Positions 3,657 through 24,131 of a DNA stretch of 64,000 nt are shown here, piece after piece. The notes beneath the pieces are model-generated. The model was not told the DNA's origin, did no database searches, and worked only from the letters and a program-made list of their open reading frames with translations. Numbering within the stretch: the stretch's first letter is position 1; each line of letters begins with the position of its first letter. This stretch comes from an uncultured Rhodospirillales bacterium (lineage in GTDB: Bacteria; Pseudomonadota; Alphaproteobacteria; ATCC43930; CGMCC-115725): assembly GCA_903822185.1 (NCBI GenBank), contig CAIJOA010000018.1, forward strand, positions 1 to 64,000, written 5' to 3'. The position numbers were made by a program, and so were the translations under genes.

Positions 3657-3734
3657 TATGTCGTGCTTTCGCCGGTGTTCTTCGCGACTGACGTCATTCT
3701 CGAAATTGCCGCCACGATGTCAAGCGACCGACCG

Positions 3735-4184
3735 TCAGGATTCGGTTACGATCCGTTCCGGTTTGATATCGATCAGCGGCGTTCCGTCAAGACAATCGAG
3801 CCCGCGCACTAGGATGGTTCCATCTTTCACCGCCATCATTTCCACGACCGACGATGCGATCGGGTTCGGCCGCACCGGCGAGCGCAAGGCGAAGGTTCCG
3901 ACGATTTTGCCGGCATGGGCGGGGGCCTGCAGCACAAGATCGCGCCGCGCCTGATCCATCCAGTAGAGCACCTGAAGGCGCTTGTGATCCTTGATGCCTT
4001 CGAGGGCTGCATGCCAGCGCTCGTCGATAATCAGCGAACAGACGGGGCCATCGAAGCTGCCGCGCTTGGGGCAGTCGCGGCGCGACGTCCAGGGCGTCCG
4101 TATCATGCCGATGAAATAGACGCCGGCGTCGTGTCGCGACGGAAGCGCGGTGACTACTTCGCCTTCGCGCAGATCGCCGTCCAT
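3735..4184 (-). CDS. TrmO/TsaA-like S-adenosylmethionine-dependent methyltransferase
   Basis: The 149-residue product matches the TsaA/TrmO beta-barrel family: the start region FIGMIRTPW, a CPKRG segment, LQVLYWMDQARRDLV, and the signature FALRSPVRPNPIASS followed by RGLDCLDGTPLIDIKP. TrmO methylates the N6 atom of t6A37 in certain tRNAs. The placement is odd: it sits inside a molybdenum-hydroxylase maturation operon, 7 bases after the MoxR gene and 78 bases before coxE. Homologues in such operons may have a role other than tRNA modification, but nothing in the sequence proves that. The family assignment is firm and the substrate is uncertain. Confidence 0.87.
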   Translation of the reverse strand: MDGDLREGEVVTALPSRHDAGVYFIGMIRTPWTSRRDCPKRGSFDGPVCSLIIDERWHAALEGIKDHKRLQVLYWMDQARRDLVLQAPAHAGKIVGTFALRSPVRPNPIASSVVEMMAVKDGTILVRGLDCLDGTPLIDIKPERIVTES

Positions 4185-4191
4185 GTCTTGA

Positions 4192-5106
4192 TCAGACGGC
4201 AGAGGCGATCTCCGCCCGGACCTGTGACAACAGCTTCTCGGCTTCGCTGCCCTGCATCTTCTGGATATCGTCTTGGTATTTCAGCAAAACGCCGAGTGTG
4301 TCGTTGATCGCCTCAGGTGTCAGCGCCAGCACGTCGAGCTGTGTCAGGGCATGTGCCCAATCGATCGTCTCGGCGACGCCGGGCAGCTTGAATAGGTCTT
4401 GCGTCTTCCTGAGCTTTTGCACGAAAGCGACGACTTCCCGGCTGAGGCTGGCCGCGGCGGTCGGCGCCTTGAGCTTGAGGATTTCGATTTCGCGCTCGGC
4501 GGCGGGATAATCGATCCAGTAGTAGAAACAGCGACGCTTGAGCGCGTCGTGAATTTCGCGGGTGCGGTTCGAGGTGACGATGACGATCGGCGGTTCTTTC
4601 GCCTTGATCGTTCCCATCTCGGGAATGGTGATTTGATAGTCGGACAGGACTTCGAGCAGGAAGGCTTCGAACGGTTCGTCGGTGCGGTCCAGTTCGTCGA
4701 TCAGCAGGACAGGGGGGCCATCGAGGCTCGGCTCGAGCGCTTGCAACAGCGGCCGCTTGATCAGGAAGCGGTCTGTGAAGATTTCGTCGGAAAGGCTTTC
4801 CTTGCTCTCGGTGCCGCGCTCGGCGAGGCGGATCTCAATCATCTGGCGCGGATAGTTCCACTCATAGACCGCCGAGGACAGATCGAGGCCTTCATAGCAT
4901 TGCAGCCGGATCAGCCGGCGTCCCAGCGTCTCGGCCAGCACCTTGGCGATCTCGGTCTTGCCGACCCCGGCCTCGCCTTCGAGAAACAGCGGCCGGTTGA
5001 GCGTCAATGACAGATAAATCGCGGTGGCGAGGCTTCGGTCGGACACGTAATTGCCCTTGCCGAGCATGGCGAGCGTATCGGAAACCGAGCTGGGCAAGGC
5101 GGTCAT
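4192..5106 (-). CDS. coxD: MoxR-family AAA+ ATPase (CoxD-like)
   Basis: This 304-residue AAA+ ATPase carries Walker A GEAGVGKT at about residues 43-50 and Walker B LLIDELDR near 134-141. The sensor-like stretch VIVTSNRTREIHDALKRRC and the lid sequence FYYWIDYP are typical of MoxR proteins. The MoxR/CoxD group couples ATP hydrolysis to activation of metalloenzymes together with a VWA-domain protein, here the CoxE-like product downstream. It appears to be the first gene of the operon, since the 112-base gap upstream separates it from a DUF1003 gene of the same strand. Confidence 0.9.
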   Translation of the reverse strand: MTALPSSVSDTLAMLGKGNYVSDRSLATAIYLSLTLNRPLFLEGEAGVGKTEIAKVLAETLGRRLIRLQCYEGLDLSSAVYEWNYPRQMIEIRLAERGTESKESLSDEIFTDRFLIKRPLLQALEPSLDGPPVLLIDELDRTDEPFEAFLLEVLSDYQITIPEMGTIKAKEPPIVIVTSNRTREIHDALKRRCFYYWIDYPAAEREIEILKLKAPTAAASLSREVVAFVQKLRKTQDLFKLPGVAETIDWAHALTQLDVLALTPEAINDTLGVLLKYQDDIQKMQGSEAEKLLSQVRAEIASAV

Positions 5107-5218
5107 TGTGGGGACTCTATCCTTAGGGGCGGGCGTCTTCTTTTAGAGCAAAGTCCGGGTCCGTCCAAGCCTTGCTGGAAAGGGCTGTATGGCCGCCGGC
5201 CAGGGAGATTTGTCCCCA

Positions 5219-5734
5219 TTACCCCGTCGAAATTTTCTGCTTCACCGCCCTGGCAATATGTTCGATCTCGGTATCTTCACGCAGCCGGTCGCCATCGGGA
5301 TCGGGTTCATCGATATCGAGCTTGCGGGCGATCCGATCGACGAGTTTCAGGATGCGGGTCGTCTCTTGCTCAGACAGCATGTTGATCTGTAGTGCCAGGT
5401 GATCGCGGGCGTCGGCACGCCGGCTCATGCGCGATTGTTTGCTCAAGACAAAAGCGGATAGCAGCAAAGCCTCGATGGTCAGAATGAGACAAAGCAACGG
5501 GTAGGGATAAGGATCGAATTTATGAATACCGGCGAGAGGGGTGTTCAAGACGATCCATACAATGATCGCTATCACCTCAATGGCGATGAAACGGATGTGA
5601 CCGGCGTGGGTGCCTATTGCGTCGGCAAAACGTTCGGACCGCGTACGGCTTTGTGTCGCCTCTTCTTCCAGCCGATTGATGCTGTCGATGTTCTCTGAGA
5701 TCGGATGGGACTTAGGATCGGATTCCTGCGTCAT
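5219..5734 (-). CDS. DUF1003 membrane protein
   Basis: The 171-residue protein fits the DUF1003 family: a charged N-terminus (SERFADAIGTHAGH), two hydrophobic segments at about residues 49-66 and 80-98, then a cytoplasmic helical tail with QINMLSEQETTRILKLVD and HLALQ. The biochemical role of the family is unknown. The last part is strongly acidic then basic, compatible with an inner-membrane anchor and a cytoplasmic domain. No co-transcribed partner is obvious; the MoxR operon starts about 110 bases downstream. Confidence 0.85.
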   Translation of the reverse strand: MTQESDPKSHPISENIDSINRLEEEATQSRTRSERFADAIGTHAGHIRFIAIEVIAIIVWIVLNTPLAGIHKFDPYPYPLLCLILTIEALLLSAFVLSKQSRMSRRADARDHLALQINMLSEQETTRILKLVDRIARKLDIDEPDPDGDRLREDTEIEHIARAVKQKISTG

Positions 5735-15878: not shown

Positions 15879-15986
15879 GGCGTTTCCCCTTTTCATTGGC
15901 CGTCGCTTTTGAGACTCTCGCGGCCTTGTCGGGTTCAGCCTATCATAGGCAACAGATAACGAGAAACATGCGTAATGGAGAATCGG

Positions 15987-17000
15987 GTGACGGGCCTAAG
16001 AGAAAATGTTTTCGCTGTTGCGATGTCGATGGCCGTCTTGGCGCTTGGCGCGTCCGGCGCGCAGGCGGAAGCGGTTAAGATCGGGCTGTCGAAATCGACC
16101 ACGGCGGGCGGCATTTTCATCGCCAAGGAAAAAGGCTATTTCGCTGCCGAGGGCATTGAGCCGGAATTCGTGATGTTCGATTCATCCGAACCGATCGCTG
16201 TCGCGGTGGCGTCGGGTGCAATCGATTTCGGCCATACCGGCGCATCGGCGGGGCTCTACCAACTGGCCGGGCAGGGCGTCCTCAAGGTCATCGCCGCCGC
16301 GAGCCGCGAAGCGCCCAGCTTTCGCGTCAACGGAATCGTTGCCTCGAACCGCGCCTATGACGCGGGCGTCAAATCGCTGAAGGATCTCGGCGGTCATTCC
16401 GTCGCGATTTCGCAATTCGGTTCGCCGCCGCATTACAGCCTGTCGCTGATCGAAGAAAAATACGGCGTTGAGCCGAAGTCCGTGCGCGTCACCGCACTGC
16501 AATCGAACCCCAACATCCTGTCGGCCCTGACCGGGGGGACCGTCGATGCCAGCGTGATGCTGGCGGCGGCCTTTATGCCGGCGGTTGATCGCGGTGAGAT
16601 GAAACTGCTCGGCTTCGTCGGCGACGAGGCGGCGTGGCAAACCGGGGTCGTGTTCACCGCGACCAAAATCGCGAACGACCGGCACGATACCGTCGCGCAT
16701 TTCCTCAGCGCGGTGCGCAAGGGCAAGCGCGATTATTACGATGCCTTCATCGACGCCAACGGCCGCCGCCATGACGGCCCGACCGCGCCGGCGATGCTGG
16801 CGATCATCGCGAAATACCTCAATCAGCCGATCGAGCAACTGACGCCCGCCATCGCCTATGTCGATCCCGAAGGCCGGCTCGATATCAAAGACGTGATCCA
16901 TCAGGTCGAATGGTTCCGCGGCCAGGGCATGATCAAAGGCACGTTCGATCCGGCGACGGTGATCGATACGCGTTACATCATCCCGCTGCCGGGGAAGTGA
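15987..17000 (+). CDS. ABC transporter substrate-binding protein, NMT1/SsuA-like (group 1)
   Basis: GTG at 15987 is preferred because GGAG lies 7 bases upstream; an ATG four codons earlier overlaps that site. The 337-residue product has a signal peptide ending AQA and a mature domain with GYFAAEGIEPEFVMFDS, AVASGAIDFGHTG, LQSNPNILSALTGGTVDAS and the C-terminal YIIPLPGK. It shares these motifs with the proteins at 7901 and 42328, making a group of three. It probably binds a small anion or organic ligand in the periplasm, but the ligand is unknown and no permease is nearby. Confidence 0.9.
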   Translation: MTGLRENVFAVAMSMAVLALGASGAQAEAVKIGLSKSTTAGGIFIAKEKGYFAAEGIEPEFVMFDSSEPIAVAVASGAIDFGHTGASAGLYQLAGQGVLKVIAAASREAPSFRVNGIVASNRAYDAGVKSLKDLGGHSVAISQFGSPPHYSLSLIEEKYGVEPKSVRVTALQSNPNILSALTGGTVDASVMLAAAFMPAVDRGEMKLLGFVGDEAAWQTGVVFTATKIANDRHDTVAHFLSAVRKGKRDYYDAFIDANGRRHDGPTAPAMLAIIAKYLNQPIEQLTPAIAYVDPEGRLDIKDVIHQVEWFRGQGMIKGTFDPATVIDTRYIIPLPGK

Positions 17001-20197: not shown

Positions 20198-20988
20198 GCG
20201 TCGAGGTTTACGACAAGAGCGTTGAGATCGACGGTATCTGGATTCCTTATCGCGAGGCGGGGGCGGGTGAGACGATCGTTTTCCTCCATGGGGCCGGTGG
20301 TGCGCCGCCGGTGACGGCGTCGTTCGTTGCAATGTTGGGCGAGCGTCATCGCGTACTGGTGCCGTCGCGGCCTGGCTTCGACGGCGCGGCGGTCGGTGAC
20401 TGTAAGACGATGCTCGATGTCGTCGCGGTGATGGCGGCGTTCATCGCCCGCGTCGGCGACGGTAAGGTGCATCTGGTGGCGCAAAGCGCGGGTGGGGCCA
20501 TCGGCGCGTGGCTTGCGATCCTGCATCCCGAACTGGTCGAGAGCCTCGTCCTCTCGGCGCCTGCGGCCTTCGCCCATCATCGCGCCCCGCCGGCCGGTGT
20601 CGCGCGTCCCAGCCCGGAAGAAATCGAGAAACGGCTTTACGGCGATCACCCGACCTGGTCCGCCCCGCCCACCGAGGCCGAACGCAAGCGCATTGCCGGC
20701 AACGCCATGGCCAATATGGGCCGGTTCAGCGCGCCCGAGGGCAACAGCGACCTCCAGGCGCGCCTGGGTGAGATCACGGTGCCGGTGCTGCTAATCGTCG
20801 CGACCGAAGATCGGATGATTCCGGAAGCGGCAATGCTGCCCTATCAGGAGAGCATCCCCAGCCTCATCCGCATTTTCATCCATGGCGCGGCGCACGAGAT
20901 GCCGATCGCCGCGGCGACGCCCTGGGTCAAGCTGGTGGCCGAATTCGTCGATCGCGGCGAATATTTCCTGGTGAATAGCGGTACTTAG
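20194..20988 (+). CDS. Alpha/beta hydrolase
   Basis: Start at 20194 overlaps the preceding monooxygenase stop. The 264-residue product has the alpha/beta-hydrolase features: an oxyanion-loop motif FLHGAGG, a nucleophile elbow VAQSAGGAIG with serine, an acid-bearing strand VLLIVATEDRMIP, and a late histidine in HGAAHEMP. That gives a plausible Ser-Asp-His triad. It likely hydrolyses an ester, amide or C-C bond in the product of the coupled flavin monooxygenase. Confidence 0.9.
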   Translation: MSVEVYDKSVEIDGIWIPYREAGAGETIVFLHGAGGAPPVTASFVAMLGERHRVLVPSRPGFDGAAVGDCKTMLDVVAVMAAFIARVGDGKVHLVAQSAGGAIGAWLAILHPELVESLVLSAPAAFAHHRAPPAGVARPSPEEIEKRLYGDHPTWSAPPTEAERKRIAGNAMANMGRFSAPEGNSDLQARLGEITVPVLLIVATEDRMIPEAAMLPYQESIPSLIRIFIHGAAHEMPIAAATPWVKLVAEFVDRGEYFLVNSGT

Positions 20989-21201: not shown

Positions 21202-21498
21202 ATGGCCAGCGCGCGCCTTTACCGCCCGACCAAGAACGCGATGCAATCGGGCAGGGCAAACACCAAGCTCTGGGTCCTCGAATACGAGCAGGCGACGCGG
21301 CGCGAGCCCGATCCGTTGATGGGCTGGTCCAGCGCGCGCGACACGCTCAACCAGGTCAAGATGAAGTTCGAAACCTTCGAGGAAGCGAAGCAGTTCGCCG
21401 AAAAGAACGGTTTCGACTATGTCGTGGTCGAACCGCAAGAGCGCAGCTTCAAGCCGAAGAACTACGCCGATAACTTCCGTTACGACCGGCAGGCGTAA
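21202..21498 (+). CDS. NADH dehydrogenase (complex I) 18-kDa NdufS4-like subunit
   Basis: The 98-residue protein starts MASARLYRPTKNAMQSGR and contains WVLEYE, DPLMGWSSARDT and the C-terminal KNYADNFRYDRQ, all hallmarks of the NdufS4/ETC complex I subunit family. In alphaproteobacteria this accessory subunit of respiratory complex I is encoded away from the nuo operon, as here. It lies between tRNA-Pro and tRNA-Arg, and its TAA stop directly adjoins the first base of tRNA-Arg. Soluble, and expected on the matrix-facing (cytoplasmic) arm of complex I. Confidence 0.93.
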   Translation: MASARLYRPTKNAMQSGRANTKLWVLEYEQATRREPDPLMGWSSARDTLNQVKMKFETFEEAKQFAEKNGFDYVVVEPQERSFKPKNYADNFRYDRQA

Positions 21499-21574
21499 GG
21501 GCCCTTAGCTCAGTGGATAGAGCAACCGCCTTCTAAGCGGTAGGTCGCTGGTTCGATCCCAGCAGGGCTCGCCA
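21499..21574 (+). tRNA. tRNA-Arg (TCT)
   Basis: A 76-base cloverleaf: acceptor GGGCCCT pairs with AGGGCTC, the anticodon stem ACCGC/GCGGT encloses CTTCTAA with anticodon TCT, and the T arm reads GCTGG TTCGATC CCAGC. CCA is encoded. The first base follows the upstream stop codon with no gap. Its 3' end is duplicated at 22704-22725. Confidence 0.95.
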
Positions 21575-21579
21575 GTTAT
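21558..21579 (+). repeat. Putative attL (tRNA-Arg 3' end)
   Basis: This 22-base segment covers the 3' part of tRNA-Arg plus five bases. It recurs at 22704-22725 with a single mismatch (21 of 22 identical). tRNA 3' ends are classic targets of tyrosine integrases, and the repeat pair brackets about 1.15 kb of small orphan genes. Confidence 0.65.
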
Positions 21580-21829
21580 AATAAACGGGCTGAATCACAG
21601 AAGCATCAGCGCCGGTCTTCTATATCGGCGATGAACGCAACTTAATTCGATTGATTAGGCCATGACTCGGTGTAATTCCGTTTCACACTGCGAATTGCAT
21701 TGTAAGCTATCTAATGCAACCTCATGTATCTGTCATCGCCACCGGTCATCATGGCATTGGGCGACAGAGAGGCAGCGCCCGGCTCCGAAAGGAAGGATTG
21801 CGCACGCTCCCGCCGTTAGGGGAGTGCAA

Positions 21830-22030
21830 ATGCGTTGTTATTTTTTCTCGGGCGGACATATCAAAGACGCGGCGGACCTCAAGGCAGCTTCAGACAGCGC
21901 TGCGATAAACGAATCCCACATGTTGTTTAAGACGGCGAAGTCAAAATATGAAGGCTTTGAAGTGTGGGACTGTGCCCGCGTCGTCTATCGTCATCAATAC
22001 ACAGGTGCGAAAACGGCGATCTCGTTATGA
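21830..22030 (+). CDS. Small hypothetical protein (66 aa)
   Basis: The start at 21830 is chosen because GGGGAG lies 5-10 bases upstream; the longer frame upstream has no coding character. The protein reads MRCYFFSGGHIKDAADLKAA at its N-terminus and has no signal peptide or membrane segment. It recalls the short alphaproteobacterial MRCYF proteins often found in accessory DNA, but that is a loose resemblance. The next gene starts at its stop (ATGA). Confidence 0.55.
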   Translation: MRCYFFSGGHIKDAADLKAASDSAAINESHMLFKTAKSKYEGFEVWDCARVVYRHQYTGAKTAISL

Positions 22031-22176
22031 CCGCCACGCACTATCGTACCATGGCTGAAACGATTCGGAAGATCGCCGACACGTTTGCCGAAGACATCCG
22101 CATCAAAATGATTGCGATGGCAGACACCTATGAACAGCGCGCAATCGATATTGAGAAAGCGAGGCTTCGGGCGTGA
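22027..22176 (+). CDS. Small helical hypothetical protein (49 aa)
   Basis: A 49-residue frame begins at the ATGA overlap with the preceding small gene. The peptide, starting MTATHYRTMAETIRKIAD, is rich in Ala, Glu and Lys and should be mostly alpha-helical. No family is recognised. Overlap with the upstream gene supports translation, but its size keeps confidence low. Confidence 0.5.
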   Translation: MTATHYRTMAETIRKIADTFAEDIRIKMIAMADTYEQRAIDIEKARLRA

Positions 22177-22185
22177 ACGCTTCCG

Positions 22186-22380
22186 TTACCCGCCGTGGCC
22201 CGGAACGGGAGGTTTTTCCCCCGGTATCAACTCGTACTCGTTTATCAAAGCATCGCGCTGTTCGTGCGAAATGTTGCGGTGCTTGAACCATTCGCGCACA
22301 CTCATGGATTCCGGCTTTGCACAGGCAAGCTCAGCGTCGATAAATCGAATGAAGTCTAAGAGTTCTTTAGTGCGGCTCAT
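22186..22380 (-). CDS. Small hypothetical protein (64 aa)
   Basis: This 64-residue frame begins MSRTKELLDFIRFIDAELA and ends in a Pro/Gly-rich tail (PGEKPPVPGHGG). It has helical, charged character (REWFKHRNISHEQRDALIN) and no membrane segment. It lies on the opposite strand to its two island neighbours. No family is recognised, but the sequence has coding-like composition. Confidence 0.5.
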   Translation of the reverse strand: MSRTKELLDFIRFIDAELACAKPESMSVREWFKHRNISHEQRDALINEYELIPGEKPPVPGHGG

Positions 22381-22425
22381 CGTCCGCTAGACGCTGGTTG
22401 CAAAACAGTAGTCCAGATAGTGCAA

Positions 22426-22659
22426 TCACTCTTTCGGAGTCTCGTCCGCCATTTTAGTGATCGGCTCGCCCGAATTGCTTTTCTCGCGTTCAAGCTTTTC
22501 TGCGACTTGTTCTAACTCATGCGCGAAAACTTCAAGTGCGTGGGCTGTCACTTCATCAACAAGTGAGACGGCCCACCTTCTCGCCTGAGCAGCTTTAGCC
22601 TTAGGTCTGAAATTTCGCTCAACGATGTCATCCCGGTAACAGGCGGAGTGTGCGAACTC
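22426..22659 (-). pseudogene. Open frame without a usable start, possible gene remnant
   Basis: A 77-residue open frame between two stops has protein-like sequence (RRWAVSLVDEVTAHALEVFA, EQVAEKLEREKS) and ends ADETPKE. It lacks an ATG near its beginning; a GTG in the middle is possible but has no good ribosome-binding site. It may be the 3' end of a truncated gene, or a gene with a frameshift near 22600. It fills most of the 392-base stretch between the 64-residue gene and the monooxygenase at 22773. Confidence 0.35.
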
Positions 22660-22703
22660 TCAGTCATTAGTGCCTGGCGAACATTTTTCGCGTGATTCGC
22701 TGC

Positions 22704-22725
22704 CCCAGCAGGACTCGCCAGTTAT
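22704..22725 (+). repeat. Putative attR (copy of tRNA-Arg 3' end)
   Basis: This 22-base stretch matches the 3' end of tRNA-Arg at 21558-21579 at 21 of 22 positions, the mismatch being G to A in the acceptor part. It lies at the far end of the small-gene island, immediately before the monooxygenase gene, consistent with the second attachment site of a past integration. Confidence 0.6.
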
Positions 22726-22772: not shown

Positions 22773-24131
22773 TTAGTCCAGCACGCCCGAGAAATGGTTG
22801 CGGGCGACATGCTGGTTGGCCGGGCGCGGAACGCCCAGATGGCCGCGCAGTGTGTCGTGCTCGTACTCGGTACGGAACAGGCCGCGCCGCTGTAGCTCGG
22901 GCACCACCATCGAACAGAAATCGTCGAGCGCGCCGGGGATATAGGCGGGCATGATCGTGAAGCCGTCGCAACATTCGGCGTCGAACCATTCCTGCATATA
23001 GTCGGCAATGAACGTGGGCGAGCCCTTGATGACGTTCTTCGCGCGGGCGCCGGCGACACGCTGGCCGAGTTGCCGGATCGTCAGCTTCTCGCGCCGCGCC
23101 ATCGAGACGATGCTGGCATAGTGGCCGCCGTCGTGATCGGGAATTTCCGGGAACGGCTCGTCCAGGTCGTACTTGGTCAGATCGATCTTGTACTCGAGCA
23201 TCGTGTTCAGCATCTCACGGCCGACAATCGGATGGATCAGTGATTGCAGATATTCGTAATCGGCATCCGCTTCTTCCTGGGTCGGACGGCAGATGACCGC
23301 AAGGCCCGGCAGAATTTTGCAGTGCTGCGGATCGCGGCCATATTTGAGCATGCGGCTTTTGACGTCTTCGTAATAGGCTTTGGCCTCGGGGATGTTGAGG
23401 TGCGGGCTGAAGATCGTTTCCGCGAACATCGCCGCCGTCTCGCGCCCATCGTCGGAGCCGCCGGCTTGCACCAATAAGGGATAGCCTTGCGGCGCACGCG
23501 GTACGTTGAGGGGGCCTTTGACCTTATACAGCTCGGTTGACCAATTCAGATCGTGGCGCTTCGCCGGGTCGTAATAGAGGCCCGACTTCGTATCGATGAC
23601 GAACGCATCGTCTTCCCAACTATCCCACAAGCCGAGAACGAGTTTCACCGCTTCGCGGGCGCGCATGTAACGATCGTGATGACCGTAGGCTTTATCCTTG
23701 CCGAAGTTCTGCGCTTCGGCATTCTGCCCTGAGGTGACGATATTCCAGCCGGCGCGGCCGTTGGAAATGTGATCCAGCGAGGCGAATTTTCGCGCGATGT
23801 GATAGGGCTCGTTCCAACTCGTCGATACGGTACCGACAAGGCCGATCTTCGACGTCACCATCGCGAGCGCCGACAGCAGCGTCATCGGCTCGAAATGCGC
23901 GACGAACTGCACCGAGCGCGAGATTGCCTCCACTGCGGCCTCGCGGGTTGCATTCGCGTCGGCCAGGAACAGCAGGTCGAATTTCGCTTTCTCGGCTGTC
24001 CGTGCGATTTCGACGTAATGTTGGATATTGAAGGAAGCATCCGCCTGCGCGCGGGGATGCCGCCATGACGCGACATGATGGCCCGTCGGATTGTAGTAGG
24101 CGGCGAGCCGCATCTTCTTGTCGGGATTCAT
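22773..24131 (-). CDS. LLM-class flavin monooxygenase, NtaA/SnaA/DszA type
   Basis: The 452-residue protein belongs to the long luciferase-like monooxygenases (NtaA/SnaA/DszA). Visible marks are FDLLFLADA near the start, TSWNEPYHIARKFASLDHIS, GRAGWNIVTSGQ, QNFG and YPLLVQAGGSDDGRE, plus a C-terminal IMPAYIPGALDDF. These enzymes use reduced FMN from a separate reductase to oxidise nitrogen- or sulfur-containing compounds. It is divergent from the LysR-controlled GST/CoA-transferase cluster to the right, beyond the lysR gene, and may belong to the same catabolic function. No reductase gene is nearby. Confidence 0.9.
   Translation of the reverse strand: MNPDKKMRLAAYYNPTGHHVASWRHPRAQADASFNIQHYVEIARTAEKAKFDLLFLADANATREAAVEAISRSVQFVAHFEPMTLLSALAMVTSKIGLVGTVSTSWNEPYHIARKFASLDHISNGRAGWNIVTSGQNAEAQNFGKDKAYGHHDRYMRAREAVKLVLGLWDSWEDDAFVIDTKSGLYYDPAKRHDLNWSTELYKVKGPLNVPRAPQGYPLLVQAGGSDDGRETAAMFAETIFSPHLNIPEAKAYYEDVKSRMLKYGRDPQHCKILPGLAVICRPTQEEADADYEYLQSLIHPIVGREMLNTMLEYKIDLTKYDLDEPFPEIPDHDGGHYASIVSMARREKLTIRQLGQRVAGARAKNVIKGSPTFIADYMQEWFDAECCDGFTIMPAYIPGALDDFCSMVVPELQRRGLFRTEYEHDTLRGHLGVPRPANQHVARNHFSGVLD

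Follow-up and report, generated by a model that had tools for sequence, protein, structure and literature searches.

A low-GC segment between tRNA-Arg(TCT) and a displaced copy of its 3' end, the probable remnant of an integrated element in a Rhodospirillales bacterium

A 64-kb stretch of DNA from an uncultured Rhodospirillales bacterium (64,000 nucleotides of contig CAIJOA010000018.1, here called the window) carries an intact tRNA-Arg(TCT) gene followed on the same strand by a copy of its 3' end, with low-GC DNA in between. We regard this segment as most probably a CIME-type remnant, of which only the attachment sites would persist: an insertion made by an integrase, which would later have undergone a deletion that included the integrase gene, and whose source was probably phage-like. 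This reading is built on the repeat, its orientation, the break in composition, the absence of integrase matches and the mobile-element settings in which certain relatives of a small gene, ORF A, are found. The locus, in positions of the window, is laid out as follows.

21202..21498, plus strand: NDUFS4-like gene (NADH dehydrogenase Fe-S protein 4), conserved left flank (Pfam PF04800, E=3.7e-37)
21499..21574, plus strand: intact tRNA-Arg gene, anticodon TCT, the presumed target (ARAGORN; Rfam RF00005)
21558..21579, plus strand: tRNA-side copy of the 22-bp repeat, putative attachment site, CCCAGCAGGGCTCGCCAGTTAT
21575..22703, no strand: low-GC mini-island, 1129 bp between the tRNA end and the distal copy (GC minimum; no matches in relatives)
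21830..22030, plus strand: ORF A, 66 aa, multi-copy small-protein family MRCYF...GHI...GFExWD (sequence searches)
22027..22176, plus strand: ORF B, 49 aa, its start overlapping the ORF A stop (ATGA) (sequence)
22186..22380, minus strand: ORF C, 64 aa, an orphan in the searches made (no matches)
22426..22659, minus strand: open frame D, without ATG; an internal GTG at 22551 gives 41 aa (sequence)
22548..22667, minus strand: ORF E, 39 aa, its stop overlapping the frame D GTG (GTGA) (sequence)
22704..22725, plus strand: distal repeat copy, a displaced tRNA-Arg 3' fragment with one mismatch, CCCAGCAGGACTCGCCAGTTAT
22773..24131, minus strand: luciferase-like monooxygenase, first right-flank gene (Pfam PF00296, E=1.8e-44)

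The repeat pair and the composition of the segment

The two repeat copies are identical at 21 of 22 positions, and at 25 of 28 when the alignment is extended, which bears out the preliminary description of a tRNA-Arg 3' segment recurring downstream with a single mismatch. On the tRNA side the repeat comprises 17 bp of the tRNA 3' end and 5 bp past it, and the distal copy is a 3' fragment lying downstream of the tRNA in the same orientation. No third site was found within the window at up to three mismatches, and 100 shuffles gave 0 sites. The genome, a draft of 50 contigs and 4,266,092 bases, was searched with the 17-base tRNA part, one position being left free. Here zero-mismatch matches occurred only at the two repeat sites, and at up to two mismatches there were 8 places compared with 4 for a reversed-pattern control. 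The preliminary description had held that an integrated element would be in doubt if the repeat lay at many unrelated sites; it is not scattered over the genome. Two tRNAs were the sole RNA families above threshold in the Rfam scan. Among the 40 tRNA genes tested in the genome, out of 43 recognised by Rfam and with up to 12 kb downstream searched, tRNA-Arg(TCT) was the only one followed by a copy of its 3' end at 15/16 bases or better.

A random repeat in an ordinary AT-rich intergenic stretch would also give such a pair, and the small size of the segment, if nothing else, fits this. With equal base frequencies assumed, about 5e-7 22-mers with at most one mismatch are expected per window and about 3e-5 per genome. 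On this expectation, the empty shuffles, the restriction to two genome sites and an opposite-strand control that gave no copy at any of 78 loci (described below), we reject chance, the probability of which we consider negligible.

The composition of the segment is as distinct as its ends. The GC content of 21580-22703 is 51.6% compared with 60.1% for the 64-kb window, and is below that of all 1258 same-size windows taken across it in 50-base steps, so that the AT-richer interior noted beforehand is clearly present. The GC content at third codon positions (GC3) is 0.56, 0.65, 0.62 and 0.52 for frames A, B, C and D, respectively, whereas the 23 checked genes of the window average 0.738 and do not fall below 0.654; codon use in the segment departs from the local norm.

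These data also bear on a second explanation, in which the distal copy is the stump of a duplicated or decayed second tRNA-Arg gene or the product of a local duplication, and the segment is native DNA. Identity does continue for 5 bp or more beyond the tRNA end, which fits a duplication, and an island-less duplication of a tRNA end exists elsewhere (the tRNA-Pro case below). However, the ungapped identity halts abruptly in the T-stem, with none to the first 59 tRNA bases, and the GC content of the segment is the lowest of the windows tested. The pattern also recurs at the same tRNA in three more genomes, while other tRNAs gave just one case in 116. We therefore consider a duplication unlikely.

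Small open frames and searches for an integrase

Frames A to D gave no Pfam family and no NCBIfam match above cut-off and no PADLOC match at E<=0.1, and for the five frames of the segment scanned there was no Pfam family above cut-off and no PHROG below E=0.01. The Pfam and PHROG scans found no phage structural, packaging or replication genes in the segment. Other copies of the segment in its own genome were absent below E 0.3, and no promoters or terminators were detected within it, the shuffles yielding 0.7 and 1.8.

The claim that the repeat copies enclose only small orphan genes does not hold for ORF A. Its family occupies 7 places in its own genome (G000), that is, six besides the window: C46:23621-23788, C28:208616-208768, C39:204606-204758, C42:3825-3980, C41:24239-24391 and C37:13875-14027. 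Relatives were found in 11 of 43 genomes of the order, and a profile matched in 5 of 385 genomes of the class, its own genome being included in both counts; since the 385-genome sample is even across the class and holds few near relatives, the latter figure understates the family.

Several relatives of ORF A lie next to genes of mobile elements. On a contig of one genome (G028:C93, L130) a tandem pair at 1384-1602 and 1719-1934 is located in a prophage packaging region, between the genes for the terminase large subunit (4-1311) and the portal (3675-5387). A reverse-strand gene matching phrog_7590 precedes the portal gene on this contig. Relatives were also found in two viral contigs, and in an IMG/VR contig the relative (47% identity over 62 residues) follows the genes for a head-tail adaptor and a tail terminator, from which a single gene of unknown function separates it. 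In genome G018 a relative is 0.7 kb from a VirD4/TraG-type coupling protein. A plasmid search with ORF A gave no match. On C46 of the own genome the ORF A copy is among ordinary genes (dienelactone hydrolase, TPR). As some copies are in such ordinary settings, ORF A may be only partly a mobile-element gene.

Two copies of ORF A are near a tRNA-Thr gene (in genome G009) and a tRNA-Gly gene (on C46), and there is no tRNA fragment at 15/16 beyond them. The ORF A tree is small (22 rows, 58 columns) and leaves the placement of ORF A unsettled. A structure predicted from 3 sequences (mean pLDDT 85.9) has the order strand-strand-helix-strand-strand, and no PDB or viral structural match to it was obtained at E<=0.001.

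ORF B is probably translated together with ORF A, judging from the overlap of its start with the ORF A stop. It matches a place on contig C48 of its own genome (43% identity, E=2.8e-6), and three further weak matches (E>=0.002) were found among the 43 genomes of the order. For ORF C, searches of plasmids, of viral contigs and of the 385 class genomes except its own (384) were all negative. Frame D, besides its own genome, gave two weak matches in the 385 genomes (E 0.005 and 0.007) and is possibly a decayed gene. The preliminary description called it start-less, which is right in so far as it lacks ATG and goes too far in view of the internal GTG, which overlaps the stop of the 39-aa ORF E. 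The latter may be a chance frame or a piece of a decayed gene.

The tyrosine integrase family (PF00589) at E<=0.001 has no match on the contig of the window (C18), and no integrase fragment was detected within the segment. The family has three matches in the own genome, on C17, C40 and C9, that on C9 being a fragment and that on C17 XerC/D-like by our reading. A one-sequence integrase search of frames downstream gave nothing; because its two seeds barely match each other this is a weak test, and the PF00589 searches carry the point. With the repeat, its orientation and the break in composition, the lack of PF00589 matches on the contig makes an integrated element without an integrase, as first proposed, the most probable reading of the locus.

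On C40, the phage-type integrase (20295-20759) is 4.3 kb behind a tRNA (15915-16001) and near the end of the contig (21,269 bases); this may be a real island that still has its integrase and was truncated by the assembly.

The tRNA-Arg(TCT) site in related genomes

The NDUFS4 gene adjoins tRNA-Arg(TCT) in relatives too. The relatives to which it led have names like 'Stellaceae bacterium', 'Rhodospirillales bacterium' or 'Alphaproteobacteria bacterium', and on the basis of these names the host probably belongs in or near Stellaceae. When NDUFS4, the tRNA and the segment were used as a DNA query, 57 of 61 genomes gave a match, the own genome included. In the 60 related genomes, at E<=0.001 and with up to five candidates scored in each, matches ended at most 15 bases beyond the tRNA, and the interior of the segment had none among the candidates scored. 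Within this search the segment is not content common to all related genomes, which had been named beforehand as an outcome that would tell against an insertion. The congener G001 has 73% DNA identity over the left flank and different DNA behind the same tRNA. In the viral collection no contig had the exact 20-base core, and viral contigs held no larger relative of the segment.

The right flank was compared in the same way. The best relatives of its monooxygenase, G014:C403 (75%) and G001:C6 (59%), are on contigs other than that of the tRNA; others are about 10 kb behind the tRNA in G001 (C7; 48%) and upstream of it in G029 (47%). The family is large, with 10 places in the own genome and 35 in G010 at E<=1e-60, and has relatives on both kinds of contig, so that this flank decides nothing on an empty site. 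The window holds several more frames read as monooxygenases and ABC substrate-binding proteins.

In G001 an integrase (L226, C7, from ~2339) is 20 kb behind tRNA-Arg, and there is no tRNA-Arg fragment by it (best 14/16 in 56 kb). By our reading of the frames it heads a prophage-like region.

For a wider comparison, 115 stretches were gathered (the window, 34 regions and 80 named loci), 12 of which had no usable tRNA-Arg(TCT). After de-duplication there were 78 distinct loci, of which 69 had at least 2 kb of downstream sequence and 56 had 5 kb or more. At 4 of the 78 loci the tRNA 3' end recurs on the same strand at 15/16 bases or better, and an opposite-strand control gave 0/78. The same-strand fragments are at offset +1146 in the window, +810 in G018, +1523 in G002 and +1912 in G040. 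With other thresholds and within 3.5 kb, the same strand compared with the opposite one gave 28 and 16 loci at 14/20, 7 and 5 at 15, 4 and 1 at 16/20, and 3 and 0 at 17; at the laxer thresholds the excess shrinks into the background. Identity begins in the T-stem in the window and G040, and at the anticodon arm in G018 and G002. Two such start positions suggest two crossover positions, and so at least two integrase specificities. PF00589 had no match on the tRNA contigs of G018, G002 and G040. In all four cases the GC content of the segment is below that of the flanks measured:

Window: segment 0.515, left 2 kb 0.628, right 2 kb 0.579
G018: segment 0.527, left 2 kb 0.646, right 2 kb 0.696
G002: segment 0.526, left 2 kb 0.618, right 2 kb 0.667
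G040: segment 0.635, right 2 kb 0.711 (left flank of 50 bases, no 2-kb value)

The four segments share no sequence (best pairwise blastn E 0.28, blastp E 0.055). The main content is a 195-aa protein in G018 and a 288-aa protein in G002, both without a Pfam family above cut-off, and in G040 a PIN/Phd pair. In two further genomes a low-GC gene is directly behind the same tRNA, and no tRNA fragment was detected behind either gene. That in G012 (L065, 16497-17033, minus strand) is a SLATT-like gene for a protein with two transmembrane segments (PADLOC E=8.8e-5; Pfam E=5.4e-4, below cut-off), and that in G001 (L050, 585-2012, plus strand) has a very weak Schlafen/AlbA match (E=0.098).

Across 180 distinct tRNA genes followed by 3 kb or more of sequence in the stretches examined, fragments were present at 4/64 tRNA-Arg(TCT) genes compared with 1/116 others. 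The single case among the others is an intact tRNA-Pro(TGG) gene (L216) whose fragment follows at a distance of 96 bp, which leaves no room for an island. A one-sided Fisher test of tRNA-Arg(TCT) against the others gives p = 0.055 as counted, 0.015 without the 96-bp case, and 0.042 without both this case and the window. That tRNA-Arg(TCT) is special as an insertion site is therefore suggestive, not strong, and the enrichment lends weak support, as it was the window that led to the choice of this gene.

Neighbouring genes were compared at the 42 loci with enough flank, of 81 given. The upstream 4 kb shares a protein with a mean of 14.0 of the 41 other loci and the downstream 4 kb with 2.5; as the window itself shares no protein on either side, this contrast speaks for the site in the wider group and not for the window.

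The recurrence allows a different view of the segments, namely that they have not decayed. Here the tRNA-Arg(TCT) gene behind NDUFS4 would be a docking site in Stellaceae and their kin for cassettes below 2 kb, which lack an integrase, are moved in trans by the integrases of other elements and carry one or a few genes (toxin-antitoxin, membrane or phage-linked small proteins). Four separate low-GC segments of this size, which occur in four genera behind a single tRNA and gave no integrase match, are consistent with this, as are plausible accessory genes (the PIN/Phd pair of G040 and the main genes of G018 and G002, one in each) and the low-GC genes in the same position in G012 (SLATT-like) and G001 (very weakly Schlafen-like). 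Mobilisation of a CIME by a later element is also known (PMC5704250). However, the segments are unrelated in sequence, their two fragment start positions point to more than one integrase specificity, none of the cassettes turned up at a second place, and the search brought no integrase to light as a partner. The picture is also the one expected of deletion remnants. Recurrence is the one positive support for cassettes, which we hold to be quite improbable. Were they real, they would form a size class that is excluded by the design of the Islander survey.

Likeness to known integrated elements and significance of the locus

CIMEs are defined as elements that have lost their integration and transfer genes and kept attL and attR (PMC5704250). 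In Streptococcus salivarius, cargo-bearing CIMEs of 1.2-13 kb have been described (PMC7563491), and the same source cites 215 CIMEs at tRNA-Lys(CTT) in 303 S. agalactiae genomes. The segment resembles these, as described there, in its retained direct-repeat ends, in having no integrase or transfer genes inside and in its few possible cargo genes. It differs in that its 1.13 kb is just under the published range and the hints lean to a phage rather than an ICE. A CIME proper would derive by deletion from an ICE or IME; with gene contexts that lean to phage, and no larger relative of the segment among the 60 related genomes or the viral contigs, the segment may or may not be one.

In the Islander survey, islands of the T-stem-region ('J') class make up 1836 of 3919 catalogued (PMC4383910). 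With these the locus has in common an intact tRNA, a same-strand 3' fragment on the correct side, an island between the two, and the T-stem region. As the survey is described, it demands an integrase and at least 2 kb (2-200 kb; PMC4383910); the segment, with 1129 bp and no integrase match, has neither. A search by these rules would reject it, along with its three counterparts.

A further comparison is with the prophages and phage satellites of Stellaceae-like bacteria, ORF A relatives being found in a prophage packaging region (G028) and behind head-tail genes (IMG/VR), although the segment itself has no structural, packaging, replication or integrase match. Tycheposons, reported from Prochlorococcus and also from Methylophilaceae, are 4-200 kb in size, and those of Methylophilaceae carry a tyrosine recombinase (PMC10872708). 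In their published description they share with the segment a tRNA at the border and cargo inside, and differ from it in that the segment is under 4 kb and without a tyrosine recombinase match. Fragments of tRNA genes left by integration are expected to be pervasive (PMC9897764), and over a dozen direct repeats of ssrA have been detected downstream of that gene in Dehalococcoides (PMC3146451). Among the entries listed in our searches of the open-access literature, none was recognisable as a report on this site or on Stellaceae islands.

Taken as a CIME-type remnant, the locus could have arisen as follows. A mobile element, probably phage-like, would have inserted by means of a tyrosine integrase into the 3' part of tRNA-Arg(TCT), within the T-stem. 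The element's own end would have restored the tRNA, and the displaced original end would have been left 1.1 kb downstream, the two repeat copies presumably being the attachment sites. A later deletion would then have removed most of the element, its integrase included, and spared two overlapping small genes, one from a family also present in phages, together with two or three orphan frames. In this state the remnant would not be expected to move unless the cell acquired an integrase of matching specificity.

The locus is a further case of a known kind of genome scar, at a recurrent site. It also sets the MRCYF/GFExWD small-protein family in a context for the first time; phage or conjugation genes adjoin some of its members. 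Moreover, it suggests that integrase-less segments below 2 kb, which are dropped by the Islander filters, are recoverable with a simple strand-controlled search. We suggest that the locus may serve as a marker, in a little-studied group, for a tRNA-Arg gene that has apparently been struck repeatedly, seemingly by elements of at least two integrase specificities.
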